From: Halorientalis litorea
GTDB taxonomy: Archaea; Halobacteriota; Halobacteria; Halobacteriales; Haloarculaceae
Direction of reading: 5' to 3'
Assembly (NCBI RefSeq): GCF_023028225.1
Contig: NZ_CP095484.1
Span: 1 to 64,000, forward strand
DNA length: 64,000 nt
The position numbers and the translations under genes were made by a program. Of the stretch, positions 231 through 11,071 are shown piece by piece. The first letter of the stretch is position 1; the number at the start of each line of letters is the position of its first letter. The notes beneath the pieces are model-generated. The model did not search any database. It was given only the letters and a program-made list of their open reading frames with translations, and was not told the DNA's origin.

Positions 231-1142
231 ATGACCGAGTCACCTCGTGGCTGGGGCGTCACACCATCGACTGGCATTCCCACGATCGCCTTCGGCAATC
301 AGAAGGGCGGGACTGGCAAAACAACGGCGACGATAAACAGTGCAGCGGCACTGGCCTCGCGAGAACACGATGTCCTCGCGATCGATATGGATCCACAGGC
401 CGATATGACGAAAGGCCTGGGACTCGGCCCGGGCGACGACAACGATCCATCAAGCCCGAAGAACGACCTTCCAAATACGCTCGCTACGGATGATGCAAAT
501 CTTCTCGACGTCCTCGTCGACAATCCGCGCACTGACGACACGACTCTTTCAGAAATTATGATCCACAGCGACGATTACGAACACCTGAATTTCGATCTCG
601 TACCGAGCCACAAGGACATGGGGCTTGCCCGGGATTGGATGGACGACGCAGGCGCTCGTCTCTCGTTGAAAGTTGCTCTCGAAGAGTTGGTCGACGACGG
701 CTACGACTACGATTTTATTTTGATCGACTGCCCCCCTGATCTCTCGGTCCTGACGGATGCAGCGTTCATCGCGGCGCAAAACGTCTTCCTGGCTGCGCAA
801 ACCCAAGCGACATCCCGGGATGCTCTAGACGATCTCTGGGATCAGCTGGAATCCATCGAGGACAACCAACAGATCGAGATTGCGATCGTGGGACTGCTGG
901 CAAACATGTACAGAGACGATGGTCAGTCACAGAAGTTCCTGGAGGCATTTGACGAGTCATATGCGTCACTAGCGCCGATCTTCAAGCTTCCAATGCGGGT
1001 AGCGATACAGCGCGCGTGGGACAACGGCTGCGATATTTTCGAATGGGAGGACGCCAACGACCAGCAAGTCGAGCGCGACCTCTTCCTGGAGGTTGCTGAG
1101 ACGATGGAACGGGCGTTCGACAAAACGCAGGTGGAGGTGTAA
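231..1142 (+). CDS. parA: ParA-family partition ATPase
   Basis: A 303-residue ParA/Soj-type ATPase that segregates the replicon by a nucleotide-switched, DNA-bound cycle. The deviant Walker A motif KGGTGKTT is at residues 25-32 after a short N-terminal extension, with DMDPQAD (switch I region) near 50 and LIDCPPDLS (Walker B region) near 163. Length is normal for archaeal plasmid ParA. The start follows the palindrome at 213-226. The next gene begins two bases after the stop, so the two form one operon. The position beside an Orc1-type origin fits plasmid maintenance. Confidence 0.93.
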   Translation: MTESPRGWGVTPSTGIPTIAFGNQKGGTGKTTATINSAAALASREHDVLAIDMDPQADMTKGLGLGPGDDNDPSSPKNDLPNTLATDDANLLDVLVDNPRTDDTTLSEIMIHSDDYEHLNFDLVPSHKDMGLARDWMDDAGARLSLKVALEELVDDGYDYDFILIDCPPDLSVLTDAAFIAAQNVFLAAQTQATSRDALDDLWDQLESIEDNQQIEIAIVGLLANMYRDDGQSQKFLEAFDESYASLAPIFKLPMRVAIQRAWDNGCDIFEWEDANDQQVERDLFLEVAETMERAFDKTQVEV

Positions 1143-1597: not shown

Positions 1598-1609
1598 ATC
1601 AGTGATTCA
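1595..1609. promoter_or_regulatory. Partition-locus palindrome at the operon end
   Basis: TGAATCAGTGATTCA, the most complete copy of the family, followed by a further overlapping half (TTCACTGAAATTC, to about 1618). It covers the stop codon of the parA partner, where repression of parA would not be the only purpose, so a centromere role is plausible. Confidence 0.55.
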
Positions 1610-1715
1610 CTGAAATTCGGATATTGCGTGATCGAGAGACCCAAGAAAACCTCGTCTGCTAAACGTGTACAGAGTCAAGCTATTTACACGGCTGGTGCGA
1701 ATGATTTTGTACTAG

Positions 1716-1952
1716 ATGGCTACCATCAACGTCGACAAATTGGAGCTATCCCAAGAACATCAGGGTGCTCTCGCCGCAGTCATCTGGGGATGGTTTCTTC
1801 GAACTCATCACCCGTACCTTTGGCAAACGCTCAATCTGGCCTTCGATTCGGCGGAGACGACCAAAGAGTGGGCAATGAAGTTGCCCACAAAGCTGATTGA
1901 GGCATACATCCTGAACGAAGCCCTCAAAGGACTCCCCGATATCCATCTGTGA
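1716..1952 (+). CDS. Small hypothetical protein
   Basis: A 78-residue frame starting MATINVDKLELSQEHQGAL, with a hydrophobic/aromatic stretch (AAVIWGWFLRTHHPYLW) and a helical C-terminus. The composition looks protein-like rather than like a shadow frame, but I recognise no family and there is no clear operon partner. It lies between the par operon and the convergent giant gene at 2097-8264. The shorter overlapping frame at 1628-1900 looks less natural. Confidence 0.4.
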   Translation: MATINVDKLELSQEHQGALAAVIWGWFLRTHHPYLWQTLNLAFDSAETTKEWAMKLPTKLIEAYILNEALKGLPDIHL

Positions 1953-2096
1953 AAGACACAGAGGACTACAGCAGATAGCAACGGTGATGTGGTTTATCAA
2001 CCCTTCCGAGGTTTTGCAAAACCGGATTTTGGCTGACTCGTAGCAGTCAAAGAGTCTGCTAATTCCGGCAGCTATCAGGTACTCACGCCTGTGAGA

Positions 2097-5000
2097 TCAT
2101 CCGATATCAAGGCTAATCGTTCCCTGTCGAACGTTTCGTTCGAACTCGCGTAGGGGGATCAACTCCCGAAGGTCGGCTTTTGACTCTAGAACAATATCCT
2201 GCTGTAGCGTCGCATTAGCTACACGGTTGTCCGACTCAGGGACGTAGACCAATCGGAGGACATAATCCTGACCGGGTGTCGTAACGAATTTCAGGCATTG
2301 TTGGTACTCGTTGGTGGTAAGCCGTATACTGTAGGGAGGATCACGCCCAACAGCCTTGACTTCGATCGGGGAGGAAGCGAGCTCGCGGTCAATCGTCTCG
2401 TCCTGTCGCGTTGGGCCCAGTGGATCGATCATATCGAAGCCGGGTCCATCCTCCTGCGACACATCGAGCATTCGGAAAAGGTGAGAATCGTCAAGAGAGC
2501 CCTGTTCGAGGTCGGTACGCCAGTTCAAGAACCGTACCTCGATATCGTCAGCGGTCAAGCTCGACTCTAACAGGTCGAGGATCTGTTCCTCCCAGACATC
2601 GCTCTTGTGCCATGCGTAGTCGCGTTCGCTTTGTTCGTCGTAAAGACGGTATATGTGCTCGACGAACCTGTCGTAGTGCGTTTTTGGGTCACGTTTTATC
2701 CACTCAGTCAGATCGTCGAGGATCTTTATCGCTGTCGCGATTTCAGCGTCTTCGCCACGCCCCTTAGTCGGATAGCCGCCGCTATCTTGATGCACACTCC
2801 CCGACACGTTTTGGCCCTTCTCTTGAATCGACGACTTCCGTGAAGATCCGCCAGACGATGACGACGTCTGAAGGATTGAGAAGTCGCGCTCTGCGTCTTT
2901 CGACACGTCGCCGGCACGACTCATCGAATCTGCTCGGAACTCACGATCGGTTTTTGTTTGGAGTGACCCCGTTCGGATGTACTCCTCCAGAAACGCAGGG
3001 AGGTCATCATTACTGGCTTCATTCTGGATTCGATCCAGCCATAACGATAGTCTATCCTCGAAGCTCGTCGAACTGAGCTCTAGCCATCGGGTATCAGTGC
3101 TGGAATCAATTTGGAGTTCGGCCGGTACCACGTCCTGCCACTGGACATTGGCAGTGACTGAATCTACCTCCGTCTTCCAGTCGATCGGATCCGCAGACGC
3201 AATAGAGAGGGCGTCATTGACCTTTGAGACTTCGACCAACCGTCGAGCTTTAGTCCGATCGATATCGGCTGTGAGATCCGCCGGGAGGAATCGTTCGTTG
3301 GTGACCCACCATTCGATGACGCGTCCGACTCGATCTCGCTCAAAGCGCTGTAAAAGCGTCCGCCAGTCGCGGTCCAACGTATCTACGTAGAGCCCCTCAA
3401 CCAGTCTTCGATAGGGGTCCGGCAGGCTCTGGACAGTCCGAACGTATTCAACGATCGGTTCGGGGTTACTATTGGAGTCGTTGATGTTGAACACTGCTTC
3501 GAGTCCTCCGACAATTCGTCCATCACTCTCTCGGCTCTCTAATGCCTGAACGGTGGTCTCGAGGTCGGGGAGTGACGGATCACCAGGCGCGATGTTTTCG
3601 ACGAGATCACTCGATGCTCGCACCCGCTGTCGGATCGAGTGCTCGAAATCACTCTCTAAGTGGCTCCGGACTTCTTCGATGGGGAAGGTGTCCTTCTTGA
3701 GTCGTTTGATCAGGTCCGCTTTGTCCTCCGTGAGGTCAAGAATAGACTCGAAATCGTTACGTGCGCGGTAATTCTCGGTCACGAGCGCGAATCCCATTCC
3801 CAGTTCAGGGACGATACCACATCGTTTCAGCTCGGGCCACGATAGCTCGCTCAAGTCACTAGCAGAGGAGACTTCGTCGATGCCCTCCAGATTCAGTACG
3901 AGCCCTTTATTCTCCTCGCTGTCTCCTCCCTCCTGCAAGTAGTACGTTCCCGATCCCGTTTTCGAGAGGGGGTTGGTCGTCTCATCCGGAAGCGACTCAA
4001 CGACTGCAAGATTTTCGATTGCTATCTCGAGTCCTGCCCGACTCTCATCAATCGAGTCCTGCGTTTCGAGTTCCTGAATCGCGATCAGTAAATCAAGCCG
4101 GTTCTGAAGTTCACGACGGATATTCCGCAAACATGTATTGAGTCCATCCGCGGTGCACTGTCGTGTTTTGAACTGGGCCGCATCAAGTGTAGGATCCGGT
4201 GCCTTGACTAACCCGACACCGAGGATTGTCATGAACTCGTCGAATCCTCTTTGTTCTTGGCGTCTGAGTTCGAATACCCGTTTCGAGTACACGTCACTGT
4301 CTGGATCAGTTAAAGCCCGTTTTTCCCATGGCGTCGGGGTGGACGAGAGATACTTGACTAAGGCATCGCGGTCGTCGCCCACAATCCAATTGATCGGGGC
4401 ACTGAACCACGTCGTTCCACGACGGAGCGGAAGATGAGTGAGCATAGGGAGGTCGAGATCCTCCCAGGAATCAGCGTCAGAGTGCTCGTCGACATATTCG
4501 AGAATCGGTTCGAAGAGTTTCGTCCGAGCACTATCCCAGTATCTCTGATTCGGGATGTCCAGTTGTGTGGGTCTTCCATCGCCGAGTCCAGTGGGTTCGT
4601 CGGCGAACGCCTCCTGCACTTGCTGTAGTTTCTGTGCTGCCTGGGAGGCGTTCAATTCTCCTAATCGTTTCACGCCCAGATCTTCCAGCAAGGCTTCGTC
4701 GGGAACCCGATCGCTATCGGGATCGATGTACGGGAAGAGCCGCCAGCCTAGCGCTTGGTCTGCCCCCCTGATGATGGCGCTGTCTAGGGTATCACTTCCC
4801 CAGCCGCGGTTTGCAGAGTCCGCGGAGTCCGACAACTTGAGGATCTCGCTCCAGATCGGTAGGGTTCGGAGCTGCCAGTTAGCGAGTGTCGGAATCGTGC
4901 GTTGCTTCTGGTGGGAACACCCCTTCCCGCCCTGACAGTACCAGTACGTCCGCAGAAGCCCCGATCGATAGGCTTCAGGGTGGTTTAGCAACGCGTCGAG

Positions 5001-8000
5001 TACTGCGTCCGGATGAGATTCTATCCATTCAAGTCCGTCGTTAGTGAACCAGACCCATGTGGCCACGTACGAGCCGCTGCTGCCTGCCGTGGAGACCGGA
5101 TCGACGTTACAGGTCTTGTTGTGATCGATGACGGCACTGGTCTGGTATCGGCCGTTCGTGATCCAGGCCTTGTACCCATCACGCCCTTCGAGAGCGGTGG
5201 CCAGTGTTTCATGAAGCTCCCGCCCGACATCTGTCGGAATCTTCTCTCGCTCCCATTCGGTGGGCCACCAGTGGGGATTCTCGCCGGTATCGCCGGTCGT
5301 ATCATAATCCATGTCGGGATCCGGGTGGAGACGGCGATCCAGCAACCAACCGTATCGGAGCCCGGGTAGACGACTCGAACCAAGCAACGAGAGGACTCTA
5401 GCGACGTTCCCGACAGGCACATCTTGATCAGCTAGTAAGGTGTCTATCTCCCCAGTCACCAATGCATCGGGCTCAGGAAGCCAGCAGTCCGTCGATAGAG
5501 TGGGACAGCTGTCAGGTCCAGAGTCAGCTTCGGCAGTATTGGCGTCCGTAGCCCGCGCTTGTTCTCGTATGGCAGCCCACGTTGGTGAGAGGGCGATGTC
5601 GGCGACGCACTCGCTCTTGCCGTCAATTTCGAGATCAATTCCACGGAGTTTCGTCCGCAATCGTTCGTCACGCCTGTCTTGCCCACTGCTTCGGACTTTC
5701 TCGAAAAGATTGTCAGTATCGAGGAAGGCCAGTTCGCCCGAGTTCAGCGTCTCCGCGCGGTTCTCGTTGTAGCAGGTCACTAGATCGGCAAGTCCGGCTA
5801 TCTCTGCTTCTCCAACACGTGCATCTTCCCTGTCCGGTAGCGGTTCTAAGAGAGATTTGTACAGTTCTGCGGGGCTATCACCCTTCCGCACGCCCCAAGC
5901 CTGACCGGCGTTTGCCAGCGTGTTACGGGTATCCCCGTTGGTGCACTCCGGATTCAGAAAGTAAACGTCGAAATCGCCGTACTCGGGCGGGAAACTGTAG
6001 TCGCGAGATTCGGTCTCGTAATCCCAAATGACTGTCCGGGAGGATCGGCGGCCACTCTCCCACGTACCTCCCTCACCTTTGCGACGGGATTCTGTGGCGA
6101 CGAGCTGTGAATTTTCGTCGCTTTCAGCCAGGCATGGGAGGAGGTATACGCCGTCGAGGCGCTGTTCGTTCTCGTCATTGCGCAGAATTGCCTTCATACC
6201 TCTGTCGGTCTCCTCCCGATAGTCCTCGAAGATACGAATCGTCCCATAGAACAACCGCTGTGCATTCGAGGCAGTGACGGTCACGACATCGTCACCCCAC
6301 CGTTCTGAGTCAAGATGCTCAGCGAGCCAGTCTACCCACGCTTCGAACTCTGACTCCGGTGCGGGATGACCCAGCAGTTCCCCAATCCGTATGTTCCAAT
6401 CGGATACGCTATCGAGTGCCTGCGTCAGCGCCTGCAACGATGTTCGCGTTGGAAGAGTTTTCGTCTCTGAGCCCACTCCTGTATGGTTATTTGACTGGTG
6501 ACGCGATTCGAGATTCGCTCGAATGGCAACAGCCGCTTCGACTCCTTTCCTGATCGTATCCGACGTCCCGATGAAGACATCCGCCGGTAAGGCAGGGGAC
6601 ACTCCAGTGGAGATACACGCCGAATCTGAGAGTCCATCATAGATCCGGGCCTTACAATACGCCAGGAGTTCCGGCGCATCGATGGGATCCGATGTCGGCT
6701 CCGATTCTGGGGGGTCCGGTGGGAGCAATAGCCAAGGATACACCTCCCACCATGGGCTGTCCCGAGACAGTTCTGCTGTTGTCTCGCCAACATACCGGAT
6801 GAGATCGCTTCCCCTCTCGAGTACCCGACAATTCTTTTCGTCGTCACTGAAATCCTGCCTGTTCGTCGCCACCCGGAAGCGACCATGGAGACAAAACGGG
6901 AACCGCCCCTCGCTAGTGGCATCAATTGGATAGTATAGATGCAGTGGATACTCAACTCGCCGTTCAAGCTTGTCGTCTGGAGATGGGCTACTCGACAACG
7001 GAATCTCCACAGTATCTGCGAGGACGGGCAACTCCGGCGTCCGATCGACGAGCACACTAACGTCCGTTTCCGGAGCGTTCTGGTGTTCGAACTCGTCGAA
7101 ACACCGGTAAGTCGGAGATTCGCCTTCGATCTGGGCTTCTACGAAGACTCGTTCATAGTTTAGCATCTCGTGGGGAACCGATTCACTCCCGTCTCGGCGG
7201 ATTGACCAGTGTTCCGCCGCCTCTACGCCCTCGTCCCCGATATTTTCGATGTAGAAGTCGTCAATTCCTTGGAAGTGGATCAGCGTCTCAACATCGAGTG
7301 ACGACGATCGTTCGCTGTCTATCGAGAGTGTCTCCCAGACCGATTGGCGGTCCCCCCGTGGTTTCTCATCGAGGTCCTTCTCGGGCTCAATCCCTAACTC
7401 AGAGAGGAGATCACGCCACTGGTCGTCTCGAAACTCGATGAATAGCGCCGTTGTAAACGATTTTGTGGGCGGGTCGTCGAACACTCCGAAATCAGATTCA
7501 CCATTGGAGACGAGGCTTCGACAGCGCCGGGCGAGCTCACTGTCGGCTGTTCTCGGATCGAGCGCAACGGGATACCAAAATAACGGAATGCCACCAACGA
7601 CATCTGGGACGTTCTGTTCATCGACTGTGTTCGGCTTAGGGAAAAGTTCAGTTTCGCTATCGCCCTGGAAGGAGTCGTGGAAATTTGATTTGAGCTCTTG
7701 GGAATCGACCGAGCGGCCGCAGTTGCGGGCGATAGCAGCAGAGAGATAGGAGCGACTGTATCTAACGCGGAGCGGCTCGGCCAGTTTGTCGACGTTCGAC
7801 CAGACCTCGAACGTGTCGCCGATGGAGAGGATGGATTTGAGACCGACGCCGATGTGGCCAACGGTGTTCGTCGTCGGCTCTAGTTCCTCGTCATCGTCGG
7901 TCTTATTCGACTCACCAACCATACGGACGGCCCGTTCGACTTCCTCATCCAGGAGATCGAACGAGTCCCCGGTATTCGCTACGACAAGTCCTTCGTCGTG

Positions 8001-8264
8001 GACACCGATGTAGATCTCGCCCGCCAGTGAGTCATCGGCTTCATCCTTGGCGGCGACGATCTCGTCACGGGCATTTTGGATGAGTTCGAGGAGTTCCCGT
8101 CCAGTATGATTTTCGGCTAAGAGACGCTCAGTATTACCGTTGTTCTTCAGCTTATCGACATCGTCACTTACCCCATTTGTAATCGTTGCCGCCTCAGAGC
8201 TCAGTTTCTCGTACCAAGTCCCGTATTCATCGATAACCTCCACTTGCTCCTCGGAAACATCCAT
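2097..8264 (-). CDS. Giant sacsin-like GHKL ATPase with NO VEIN (DUF3883-type) C-terminus
   Basis: A 2055-residue cytoplasmic protein. The N-terminus has the GHKL fold: N-box ELIQNARDE near 60, G1 box DEGLVVANTG near 95, and G2 box GHIGVGLKS near 140, as in sacsin/Hsp90-like ATPases. The last 70 residues (GFDMIDP, then SSPIEVKAVGRDPPYSIRLT) match the NO VEIN/DUF3883 pattern, a PD-(D/E)xK-like domain often found with defence genes. The middle 1700 residues show no motif I know. I place the start at the internal ATG (8264), which follows GAGAGGT, rather than at 8291. It stands alone beside the replication region. A defence role is inferred. Confidence 0.8.
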   Translation of the reverse strand: MDVSEEQVEVIDEYGTWYEKLSSEAATITNGVSDDVDKLKNNGNTERLLAENHTGRELLELIQNARDEIVAAKDEADDSLAGEIYIGVHDEGLVVANTGDSFDLLDEEVERAVRMVGESNKTDDDEELEPTTNTVGHIGVGLKSILSIGDTFEVWSNVDKLAEPLRVRYSRSYLSAAIARNCGRSVDSQELKSNFHDSFQGDSETELFPKPNTVDEQNVPDVVGGIPLFWYPVALDPRTADSELARRCRSLVSNGESDFGVFDDPPTKSFTTALFIEFRDDQWRDLLSELGIEPEKDLDEKPRGDRQSVWETLSIDSERSSSLDVETLIHFQGIDDFYIENIGDEGVEAAEHWSIRRDGSESVPHEMLNYERVFVEAQIEGESPTYRCFDEFEHQNAPETDVSVLVDRTPELPVLADTVEIPLSSSPSPDDKLERRVEYPLHLYYPIDATSEGRFPFCLHGRFRVATNRQDFSDDEKNCRVLERGSDLIRYVGETTAELSRDSPWWEVYPWLLLPPDPPESEPTSDPIDAPELLAYCKARIYDGLSDSACISTGVSPALPADVFIGTSDTIRKGVEAAVAIRANLESRHQSNNHTGVGSETKTLPTRTSLQALTQALDSVSDWNIRIGELLGHPAPESEFEAWVDWLAEHLDSERWGDDVVTVTASNAQRLFYGTIRIFEDYREETDRGMKAILRNDENEQRLDGVYLLPCLAESDENSQLVATESRRKGEGGTWESGRRSSRTVIWDYETESRDYSFPPEYGDFDVYFLNPECTNGDTRNTLANAGQAWGVRKGDSPAELYKSLLEPLPDREDARVGEAEIAGLADLVTCYNENRAETLNSGELAFLDTDNLFEKVRSSGQDRRDERLRTKLRGIDLEIDGKSECVADIALSPTWAAIREQARATDANTAEADSGPDSCPTLSTDCWLPEPDALVTGEIDTLLADQDVPVGNVARVLSLLGSSRLPGLRYGWLLDRRLHPDPDMDYDTTGDTGENPHWWPTEWEREKIPTDVGRELHETLATALEGRDGYKAWITNGRYQTSAVIDHNKTCNVDPVSTAGSSGSYVATWVWFTNDGLEWIESHPDAVLDALLNHPEAYRSGLLRTYWYCQGGKGCSHQKQRTIPTLANWQLRTLPIWSEILKLSDSADSANRGWGSDTLDSAIIRGADQALGWRLFPYIDPDSDRVPDEALLEDLGVKRLGELNASQAAQKLQQVQEAFADEPTGLGDGRPTQLDIPNQRYWDSARTKLFEPILEYVDEHSDADSWEDLDLPMLTHLPLRRGTTWFSAPINWIVGDDRDALVKYLSSTPTPWEKRALTDPDSDVYSKRVFELRRQEQRGFDEFMTILGVGLVKAPDPTLDAAQFKTRQCTADGLNTCLRNIRRELQNRLDLLIAIQELETQDSIDESRAGLEIAIENLAVVESLPDETTNPLSKTGSGTYYLQEGGDSEENKGLVLNLEGIDEVSSASDLSELSWPELKRCGIVPELGMGFALVTENYRARNDFESILDLTEDKADLIKRLKKDTFPIEEVRSHLESDFEHSIRQRVRASSDLVENIAPGDPSLPDLETTVQALESRESDGRIVGGLEAVFNINDSNSNPEPIVEYVRTVQSLPDPYRRLVEGLYVDTLDRDWRTLLQRFERDRVGRVIEWWVTNERFLPADLTADIDRTKARRLVEVSKVNDALSIASADPIDWKTEVDSVTANVQWQDVVPAELQIDSSTDTRWLELSSTSFEDRLSLWLDRIQNEASNDDLPAFLEEYIRTGSLQTKTDREFRADSMSRAGDVSKDAERDFSILQTSSSSGGSSRKSSIQEKGQNVSGSVHQDSGGYPTKGRGEDAEIATAIKILDDLTEWIKRDPKTHYDRFVEHIYRLYDEQSERDYAWHKSDVWEEQILDLLESSLTADDIEVRFLNWRTDLEQGSLDDSHLFRMLDVSQEDGPGFDMIDPLGPTRQDETIDRELASSPIEVKAVGRDPPYSIRLTTNEYQQCLKFVTTPGQDYVLRLVYVPESDNRVANATLQQDIVLESKADLRELIPLREFERNVRQGTISLDIG

Positions 8265-8327
8265 ACCTCTCACACATCGGGCATACATCAAAAAAGTCTA
8301 AGGGAGAGCCACCAGCTGAGCCTCCAC

Positions 8328-8516
8328 TCATTCGGGATAGTCGTCGAAGGCGGCCTCGCGTATCTCCAGTACACGATCGAGCAACTTCACCGGGATCAAT
8401 GCGGGTTGAACTGATAAATGATATTGCATCTCTCCAAACCCCTCGAAGGTTATAGACAGAATACACAGAACGTGACGACGCTCGAACGGACTTACGGCTA
8501 GAACCTCGTCGTCCAT
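8328..8516 (-). pseudogene. Possible gene remnant
   Basis: A 62-codon frame ending LIPVKLLDRVLEIREAAFDDYPE, with natural-looking helical composition. The frame stays open upstream to about 8561 without a good start. It sits just upstream of the giant gene, on the same strand, and looks like the 3' part of a lost gene. I do not recognise the family. It could also be a chance frame. Confidence 0.3.
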
Positions 8517-8700
8517 CCCGGACAGGATATCGATGTACGTCGTCGTCGACGACGAGAAGCCTCACGAGAGCGGGTCGCCCTCGTACTATGAAACAAAGTT
8601 GGTCCAGGCTGTCGAGAGGACACTTCCCTTTGACTGAATTAGAACGACATCCGGCGAGCTCAATGGAACACGTGTAGTCGCGGATTGGATCTGACGAACC

Positions 8701-8725
8701 CCCTCCCCCCTTTTTCGAGTTGTAA
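8701..8725 (-). repeat. Origin recognition box, inverted copy
   Basis: On the minus strand this reads TTACAACTCGAAAAAGGGGG and continues GGAGGG. It is the only box of the cluster pointing left, and it faces the plus-strand box at 9040 across the AT-rich core. Such inverted ORB pairs around a duplex-unwinding element are the usual haloarchaeal origin plan. Confidence 0.85.
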
Positions 8726-8825
8726 ACTCGTGGTGATGGGAGGGGTGAACAGGAAGAGAGACCACAAAACAGCCGATTATGGCAGAAACACGCGATAGAA
8801 GGCCTGAATATCCATTCCTATAACT

Positions 8826-8960
8826 CATAACTTAAAATGCGAAGTTTTATGTTATGTTATATCTAACCAAACCCGTAGTAGAGACAAAAGAGACGAATCT
8901 TCTAGCTCAACTAGAAGATTGAGATTCTTGGATATAGAGAATCTTCTATTAGAAATTATC
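8826..8960. other. AT-rich duplex-unwinding element of the origin
   Basis: The most AT-rich stretch of the left half (ATAACTTAAAATGC..., TTATGTTATGTTATATC...). It includes a perfect 10-base inverted repeat, AATCTTCTAG-CTCAA-CTAGAAGATT at 8896-8920, and a further AATCTTCT at 8941-8948. It lies between the inverted boxes at 8701 and 9040. Inferred to be where Orc1 opens the duplex. Confidence 0.7.
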
Positions 8961-9039
8961 ACGTTTCATTGCCTCTACGTCCTATTCCGTGAACTCCGTT
9001 CTCACTCCAGGGTGTCTGGAGTGGTCTGCACCCAGCAAC

Positions 9040-9535
9040 TTACAACTCGAAAAAGGGGGGAGAGGGTAGATTGTTCGAGAACGCTATACGAACACCACCA
9101 ACCATCGTGTTTGTAAACCGGTATTACTCTCATTCGTGAACTGCTCCTACGAGCGTTGCCCTTTCGCGACAATTCTGGTGCTTACTACTCGAAAACGGGG
9201 AGTGTAGGATACACCGTTTCACCCTAAGCATCATTCGCAAAACTCAGACGATACAGATTTGCTTCTATACTCAGTGCGACTCACTGTTACTTACAACTCG
9301 AAAATGGGGCGGGTGGGAGAATCAGACCAGGTGTGTAACCGCTCCTCAAAGTCTTACAACTCGAAAACGGGGGGTCTGGGCTATCGAGGGATTTCGATGA
9401 TAGATCTTCGTCGAACCGTTACAACTCGACAACGGAGGGTGATAGATTCCGAAGACGGTATCTGACTCATCCAGAGGATACGGGGCTGTAGTAGTTATAT
9501 AGCCTGTTTTCGCCCGGTTACAACTCCACAAGGGT
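9040..9535 (+). repeat. Upstream origin recognition box cluster
   Basis: Plus-strand boxes of the form TTACAACTCGAAAACGGGGG start at 9040, 9182 (TTACTACTCG variant), 9291, 9354 and 9419, with a degenerate one at 9518. The last is just upstream of the orc1 TATA-like TTTTTATACC at 9541, so Orc1 may repress its own gene there. Boxes match the haloarchaeal ORB pattern of a core followed by a G-run. Confidence 0.85.
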
Positions 9536-9571: not shown

Positions 9572-11071
9572 ATGGGACGAGAGGGACGTAGAGCAGGATC
9601 GAATAATCCGGAAGGTGAGGAGGATCGTGAATCTTCTGCTGCTGATCCTGAAAATCCCGAGTCGATGGATGAGGGAATGGAATCTCCTGGCACGTCACAA
9701 ACGACCTTCGAAAACGGATCAGATTCCGCCGATTCGTCTCAAGAAGCAACTAACGGCGACGGTGGAGGCATCTCAATTCGTGATCGGCTCCAAACTGAGT
9801 CGTCCGGTGGCGTTTTCGCGAACAAAGACCTCGTCCGATCAGATACCATCATCGACGAGGATCGTATCGTTGGTCGTGACGACCAGCTAGGCCGTGTCGT
9901 CGACAATCTAAAACCGGTCCTCCAGAATGAAGGGATCCCGGATATGCTTCTGAGTGGTCCTTCTGGAACTGGGAAGTCGCTCATCATTCATGCGGTCTGC
10001 AAACAGATCGTCGAACTGTGTGAATCCCAAGGCAAGACCTTCGGGGTCATTTCAATCAACTGCGAGGGGCCGAAGACAGCAGATCGGGCTGTCTATCGGT
10101 TAGTCAAAGCTGCTGCCGACGACCTCGGCGTTGATCCTGGTGTTCCCCAAACCGGCGTCTCAACGGATCAGAAGCTCGAGAGACTGTATGAACTCATGCG
10201 AGAGTACTACGACGGTGTCATTTTTATCCTCGATGAGATCGATATGCTCGAGGGGCCGTATCAGGAAGCAGAGTACAATTCTCTCATCTACCAGCTTTCA
10301 CGGGCTCGCAAACTCGCCGATTTTGATGGTCCCATCTCGCTCACGACGATTACGAACTACGCCGACTTCATGAAGGACCTCAACAGCCGCGCACAGAGTT
10401 CTTACAATCCTGACGATATCTTCTTCGACGATTACGATGCGACGCAGCTCCGTAGTATTCTCAAACATCGGCGAGACGCCTTCAAGCCAGAATCACTTGC
10501 AGATGACGTCGTTCCGCTTGTTGCTGCGTTCGGATCCCAAACGCACGGGGATGCACGGAAAGCGATTGATCTCCTCAGGTGGGCGGGCGAATTAGCCGAG
10601 CGGCGTGGAGCTGACACAGTTACCGAGACTGATGTCCGTGAAGCTCAGGAGAAGTACACTGAAAACCGCAAACTCCGCCATATCAGCGGGATTTCAACTC
10701 AAAAGAAACTCTCCATCTACGCTGTGGCGGCCACTGCCCACTACGCAAGAGAACATCCTGAGTGGATCCCTGCTGGACCTGCGTTCAAGACGTACCAATT
10801 CATTGCTGATACGATGGACGCAGACCAGTACAGTCGCGAGACCTTCGTAAATCACGTCACTGAGCAGAGTACGTACGGTGTGTTGGACTTCGAGCGTCGA
10901 GGTAAGGGGCGGGGCAGAGGAGTGCATATGTATTTCTCCCTCTCCGAGGATCCGGAAACGATCATGGAGACGATCCGTGAGGATTCCCGGTTCGAGGATC
11001 TAGCTCACGAAGAGGCGACTATCAGCGCGGTTGTCCGCGAACGGCTGAAGCAGTTCCGGAGTAAGAACTAA
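9572..11071 (+). CDS. orc1/cdc6: Orc1/Cdc6 replication initiator
   Basis: A 499-residue AAA+ initiator that binds origin boxes and recruits the replication machinery. The first 85 residues are an acidic, low-complexity extension. Then follow Walker A GPSGTGKS at 129-136, Walker B IFILDEID near 217, the sensor region TITNYADF, arginine-finger/sensor-2 region GDARKAIDLL, and a C-terminal winged helix (about 370-490). Length is typical of haloarchaeal Orc paralogs. The TATA-like element at 9541-9549 is about 28 bases before the ATG, implying a leaderless transcript. Boxes on both sides identify this as the cognate origin. Confidence 0.97.
   Translation: MGREGRRAGSNNPEGEEDRESSAADPENPESMDEGMESPGTSQTTFENGSDSADSSQEATNGDGGGISIRDRLQTESSGGVFANKDLVRSDTIIDEDRIVGRDDQLGRVVDNLKPVLQNEGIPDMLLSGPSGTGKSLIIHAVCKQIVELCESQGKTFGVISINCEGPKTADRAVYRLVKAAADDLGVDPGVPQTGVSTDQKLERLYELMREYYDGVIFILDEIDMLEGPYQEAEYNSLIYQLSRARKLADFDGPISLTTITNYADFMKDLNSRAQSSYNPDDIFFDDYDATQLRSILKHRRDAFKPESLADDVVPLVAAFGSQTHGDARKAIDLLRWAGELAERRGADTVTETDVREAQEKYTENRKLRHISGISTQKKLSIYAVAATAHYAREHPEWIPAGPAFKTYQFIADTMDADQYSRETFVNHVTEQSTYGVLDFERRGKGRGRGVHMYFSLSEDPETIMETIREDSRFEDLAHEEATISAVVRERLKQFRSKN

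Follow-up and report, generated by a model that had tools for sequence, protein, structure and literature searches.

The window, viz. the whole stretch of 64,000 nucleotides that was analysed, comprises the first part of a contig of Halorientalis litorea that is 109,717 bp long. The genes and features of interest in it are listed below, with residue numbers referring to the protein encoded by the long gene on the minus strand:

231..1142, plus strand: ParA-type partition ATPase (ParA is annotated in the plasmid relatives)
1145..1597, plus strand: 150-aa gene, located 3' of parA in related plasmid loci
2097..8264, minus strand: tmtA-like gene, 2055 aa plus stop
2100..2759, minus strand: divergent NOV_C/DUF3883 tail, probably of PD-(D/E)XK type, aa 1836-2055
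2355..2363, minus strand: E1968-x-K1970 motif of the tail
2433-2435, minus strand: D1944 of the tail
2742-2744, minus strand: E1841 of the tail
2763..2894, minus strand: Ser/Gly linker, aa 1791-1834, of low confidence and probably disordered (AlphaFold2 pLDDT < 50)
4911..5123, minus strand: probable zinc site, aa 1048-1118 (H1048-x3-C1052 ... C1110 ... C1116 or H1118)
6600..8147, minus strand: predicted GHKL (Bergerat) ATPase with an Hsp90-like second domain, aa 40-555
8064..8096, minus strand: N-box, aa 57-67 (E60, Q63, N64, R66, D67)
8705..9534: origin-type ORB repeats, TTACAACTCGAAAACGGGG-like, in six direct copies and one inverted copy
9572..11071, plus strand: orc1/cdc6 replication initiator (TIGR02928, E 3.6e-105)

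The open frame of 2055 codons and a stop, which the original prediction had placed at 2097-8264 with no strand given, is present there and reads from 8264 to 2097 on the minus strand. An in-frame extension of this frame up to 8291 is possible; in the copy from Halorientalis persicus, which is 90% identical, the first in-frame start is the equivalent of the ATG at 8264, and an A/T run at 8290-8295, 26-31 bp upstream of this ATG, lies where a haloarchaeal promoter is expected. This is a real gene, because full-length homologs of its protein (31-35% identity) are found in many haloarchaea and the dN/dS value against the H. persicus copy is 0.13 overall (0.05 in aa 1-200), and it is under purifying selection. 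The gene is located between parA and the Orc1/ORB origin, and its predicted position next to a plasmid origin is confirmed by the ORB-like repeats lying beside orc1/cdc6. Because the sequences matching the two ends of the contig are contiguous in H. persicus, the contig most likely represents an entire plasmid, circular and of ~110 kb, whose VirB4/conjugal-transfer backbone is common to many haloarchaeal plasmids.

No match to the whole protein was obtained in the Pfam scan even at E<=10, and searches of PDB sequences using profiles of the full protein, its head and its tail identified no genuine relative (the matches seen to a catalase and a xylanase were rejected as due to chance). Likewise, no relatives were found in the viral contigs that were searched. 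However, the earlier statement that about 1700 residues of this protein have no known domain holds for Pfam (where aa 556-1790 give none) but not for PADLOC, whose TmtA model PDLC03964 spans nearly the whole protein (aa 12-2053 against positions 4-1535 of 1538 of the model, 1009 bits, E 1e-303). The same model is matched by all 17 of the homologs in the family alignment and by bacterial relatives of ~1540 aa (13/13) and ~1400 aa (15/15). By PADLOC's models, the window protein is thus assigned as a haloarchaeal member of Tiamat (TmtA), which is a single-gene system. In addition to the full-length profile match, it resembles Tiamat in its sacsin-type GHKL head, its NO VEIN-type tail and its occurrence as a single gene; it differs in length, as these haloarchaeal homologs are ~2000-2200 aa long in comparison to ~1400-1550 aa for the bacterial TmtA relatives. 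An antiphage role has been reported for Tiamat (Millman et al. 2022, through PMC13321033 and PMC12926258), as has its occurrence in 20 archaeal genomes out of 382 complete ones (Millman et al. 2022, through PMC13321033), and its mechanism is listed as unknown in a 2026 review (PMC12926258).

The claim that this protein begins with a GHKL ATPase is well borne out by the motifs, the sequence models and the fold search. Of the N-box residues, E60, Q63, N64 and D67 are invariant in 27/27 homologs, as are N97-x-G99 and the glycines G136/G139/G141, so that an N-box with E/N/D, a D-x-G motif (in the form N-x-G) and a glycine-rich lid motif, which characterize the GHKL superfamily, are all found. The presence of N97 in place of the Asp of the Hsp90 D-x-G motif is, by comparison of the sequences, a family trait, because the same N is found in both bacterial TmtA groups, and it should not be interpreted as proof of ATP hydrolysis. 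The NCBIfam sacsin-type model NF047352 scores 49.7 bits, just below its cut-off of 50, and profile comparison with bacterial TmtA aligns aa 40-555 with a probability of 98.7 (E 1.8e-16). For an AlphaFold2 model of aa 1-1150 (mean pLDDT 74.8, pTM 0.65), all 50 Foldseek matches listed for the head are to Hsp90, TRAP1, GRP94 and MORC (E 1.3e-3 to 6.5e-3, with a Foldseek probability near 1), MORC3 appearing beside Hsp90 and TRAP1. The head is accordingly modelled as a sacsin/Hsp90-type GHKL ATPase fold. With sacsin, Hsp90 and MORC it shares the Bergerat ATPase fold and the Hsp90-like second domain, but HEPN or DnaJ domains are absent in the Pfam scan and the window protein ends instead in a nuclease-type tail. 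Sacsin or DUF3883 are not mentioned in the YprA/ARMADA preprint and the 2008 MutL/MORC paper.

Past aa 555, the haloarchaeal middle region and that of bacterial TmtA cannot be aligned by profile comparison. In this region, H1048, C1052 and C1110 are invariant in 27/27 haloarchaeal homologs, with the H1048-C1052 spacing ranging from x2 to x4, and the fourth ligand position, which lies a few residues past C1110, is H in most homologs and C where this H is missing. This exchange of H for C suggests metal binding, for which zinc is the predicted ion; AlphaFold2 confidence is low around H1048-H1118. The site is an additional feature of the haloarchaeal homologs as compared to bacterial TmtA, since an equivalent invariant Cys/His set is absent from the consensus of either bacterial group.

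In the tail, the motifs occur in the order R-x4-E ... G-P-G-F-D-x-x-D ... P-x-E-x-K-x-V ... N-E, and none of E1841, D1944, E1968 and K1970 is replaced in any of the sequences (27/27), which extend down to 17-25% identity; the catalytic D and E-x-K that are expected of a PD-(D/E)XK domain are thus present in all of them. The original prediction of a NO VEIN end is upheld in part. When searched alone, the tail matches NOV_C with E=0.0023, but the whole protein lacks any Pfam match and the score of the tail, 18.4 bits, is below the Pfam curated cut-off of 22.1, due to which we refer to it as NOV_C-like and do not file it as NOV_C. The NOV_C model is matched by 11 of the 27 homolog tails (best 2.6e-4), it is matched at gathering level by four haloarchaeal TmtA relatives of ~1600 aa, and it is present in all 13 scanned bacterial TmtA proteins of ~1540 aa (best 1.6e-15). 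The motif set G-[FY]-D ... E-x-K ... N-E is conserved in the haloarchaeal tails. The assignment relies on this model and on the invariant residues, because direct profile comparison of the window tail with the NOV_C-positive tails is weak (probability only 41.5, E 2.7e-4). The likeness to the C-terminal domain of the plant NO VEIN protein (Pfam NOV_C PF13020/DUF3883) consists of the G-F-D, P-x-E-x-K and N-E motifs, and this comparison covers only the tail, with its score under the Pfam cut-off. DUF3883 has been described earlier as a novel REase domain (PMC3710099). As to a nuclease fold, whose lack would have spoken against the earlier proposal, the predicted order of helices and strands in the tail is compatible with PD-(D/E)XK, but Foldseek found nothing significant for the C-terminal half, with Hjc, SwaI, HincII and EcoRV appearing at E 2-9 only. 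These sequence comparisons support the tail being a divergent NO VEIN-type domain of the PD-(D/E)XK type.

If the tail instead binds DNA or RNA without cutting it, then the protein would be a Tiamat protein of a non-nuclease kind, in which the ATP-driven clamp blocks replication or transcription. In favour of such a protein, the tail gives a fold match that is no more than suggestive, NOV_C takes its name from a plant protein and no PDB relative emerged from the sequence searches; however, the invariance of the four residues noted above is unexpected for a degenerate nuclease and counterparts of these motifs are present in both groups of bacterial TmtA, and we consider this alternative to be unlikely.

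The interpretation that we favour, and regard as probable though by no means assured, is that the gene is a single-gene antiviral cargo of the Tiamat family on the ~110-kb plasmid, in which an ATP-driven GHKL clamp controls a NO VEIN-type nuclease tail. In the mechanism that we infer for TmtA, which encompasses the nuclease activity, ATP gating, trigger, target and zinc, the sacsin/Hsp90-type head would bind ATP and dimerise into a clamp, and the long middle region, with its probable zinc site in the haloarchaeal clade, would recognise DNA or protein derived from an invader. The ATP-driven closure would then free or position the C-terminal PD-(D/E)XK domain, and the tail would cut nucleic acid, either that of the invader or, abortively, that of the host. 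An experimentally validated single-protein defence combining GHKL and PD-(D/E)xK is VcSduA, which no longer protects once either its ATPase Glu or its nuclease Lys has been altered (PMC12137116). VcSduA (Shedu type I-D) is similar in outline, viz. a single defence protein with a GHKL head and a PD-(D/E)XK tail, but its nuclease family is DUF4263 by the account in PMC12137116 and the two are likened by description, not by sequence; DUF4263, the Shedu nuclease domain, was not found in the Pfam scans of either the whole protein or the tail of TmtA. The presence of NOV_C in the 13 bacterial TmtA proteins and of the catalytic residues in the 27 haloarchaeal sequences provides a testable mechanism of a GHKL-gated nuclease, with the residues named.

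Relatives of the window protein are distributed patchily, being found in 39 of the 391 genomes of the class and in none of the 5 other sampled Halorientalis genomes, and many of the homologs are on main chromosomes. Except for TmtA itself, no neighbouring gene is common across 35 loci, and a conserved partner gene for tmtA was rejected on this basis. Several of the homologs adjoin defence genes, viz. BrxHII (locus L092), BrxB-BrxC-PglZ (L101), BrxC (L104), an HmaB-like methylase and DrmD-like helicase (L105) and, in some cases, a PbeA-like helicase; these are individual occurrences and not an enrichment measured against random haloarchaeal plasmid genes. Conserved housekeeping surroundings, which would have argued against a defence role, are not what the homolog neighbourhoods show, as their contexts are of the defence type. 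Along with the family membership, the head fold, the invariant active-site residues of head and tail and the purifying selection, these contexts and the mobility of the gene are computed results. The earlier view of this gene as a stand-alone defence candidate is retained in so far as it is one gene with no conserved partner in defence-type contexts, but the idea of an unrecognised system is not supported, since the protein falls over its full length within Tiamat (TmtA). The Tiamat system is already known, and what is new here is the shared ATPase-nuclease anatomy of Tiamat, the haloarchaeal H-C...C-H/C (probable zinc) site and a plasmid slot with at least four divergent TmtA lineages; the window gene provides useful mechanistic clues and is not a new kind of system.

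In Halobacterium salinarum DSM 3754 (L101:1-15838), the genes situated immediately upstream of tmtA, and in the same orientation, are BrxB, BrxC, PglZ and two of 183 aa and 213 aa, of which the 183-aa gene resembles, by eye only, a TATA-binding protein. At about a dozen of the tmtA loci (L105, L107, L111, G223 and others), a pair consisting of an AddAB-like UvrD helicase and a PD-(D/E)XK protein is found at a distance of up to ~9 kb; this pair is absent at the window locus.

Halospeciosus flavus has a tmtA with ~98% DNA identity at a different position on a related backbone. This copy (L090:14605-15560) is split by an element which was assigned by eye as IS5-like, with a 9-bp duplication CTTAGAGAG; the copy at L156 is interrupted by IS66, and those at L097 and L100 are fragmented. 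As the fold of the head is closest to Hsp90, TRAP1 and MORC, the protein could be thought of as a counterpart of eukaryotic sacsin that acts as a chaperone or in the stress response, with no role in defence. However, such a function is highly improbable in view of this repeated disruption, the patchy distribution, the carriage as plasmid cargo, the catalytic motif in the tail and the defence neighbours.

The slot after parA and the 150-aa gene (1598-8700 in the window) harbours at least four divergent TmtA lineages in related plasmids (L188, L189, L199, L215, L216, L223 and G081 (L181)). The TmtA types seen in it are that of the window and H. persicus, that of G081 and that of L112/L113, and both L216 and L223 have weakly matching relatives of TmtA there; the frame in L216 (G046:C4) also matches the TmtA model with E 2.5e-29. 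The ParA proteins of these slot plasmids are 90-100% identical, and the first three TmtA types are 23-33% identical between types. Most of the ~40 related ParA loci examined are without TmtA in this slot. If TmtA is directed not against viruses but against plasmids entering the cell or related replicons, which it would destroy to the benefit of its own plasmid, then its location between the partition and replication modules and the divergent lineages beside the same ParA could be accounted for. However, the homologs on main chromosomes or beside BREX and Hma/DISARM-like genes, and the antiphage activity reported for Tiamat (Millman et al. 2022, in the citations noted above), make a role in plasmid competition quite improbable. 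Returning to the antiviral interpretation, an extended form of it, which we put forward only tentatively, is that haloarchaeal TmtA represents a distinct variant of Tiamat, viz. a NO VEIN-type nuclease, ATP-clamped, whose enlarged middle region contains a zinc-binding sensor specific to the clade, and which would be swapped as interchangeable cargo with divergent sensors at a fixed slot between the partition and replication modules of conjugative-type plasmids. This recurrent slot is also a place to seek more haloarchaeal defence genes. On the same plasmid as the window gene, a second defence locus is possible at C3 99718-107690, where two genes have PbeA-like helicase matches (L082:15718-19548 and L083:730-3690).
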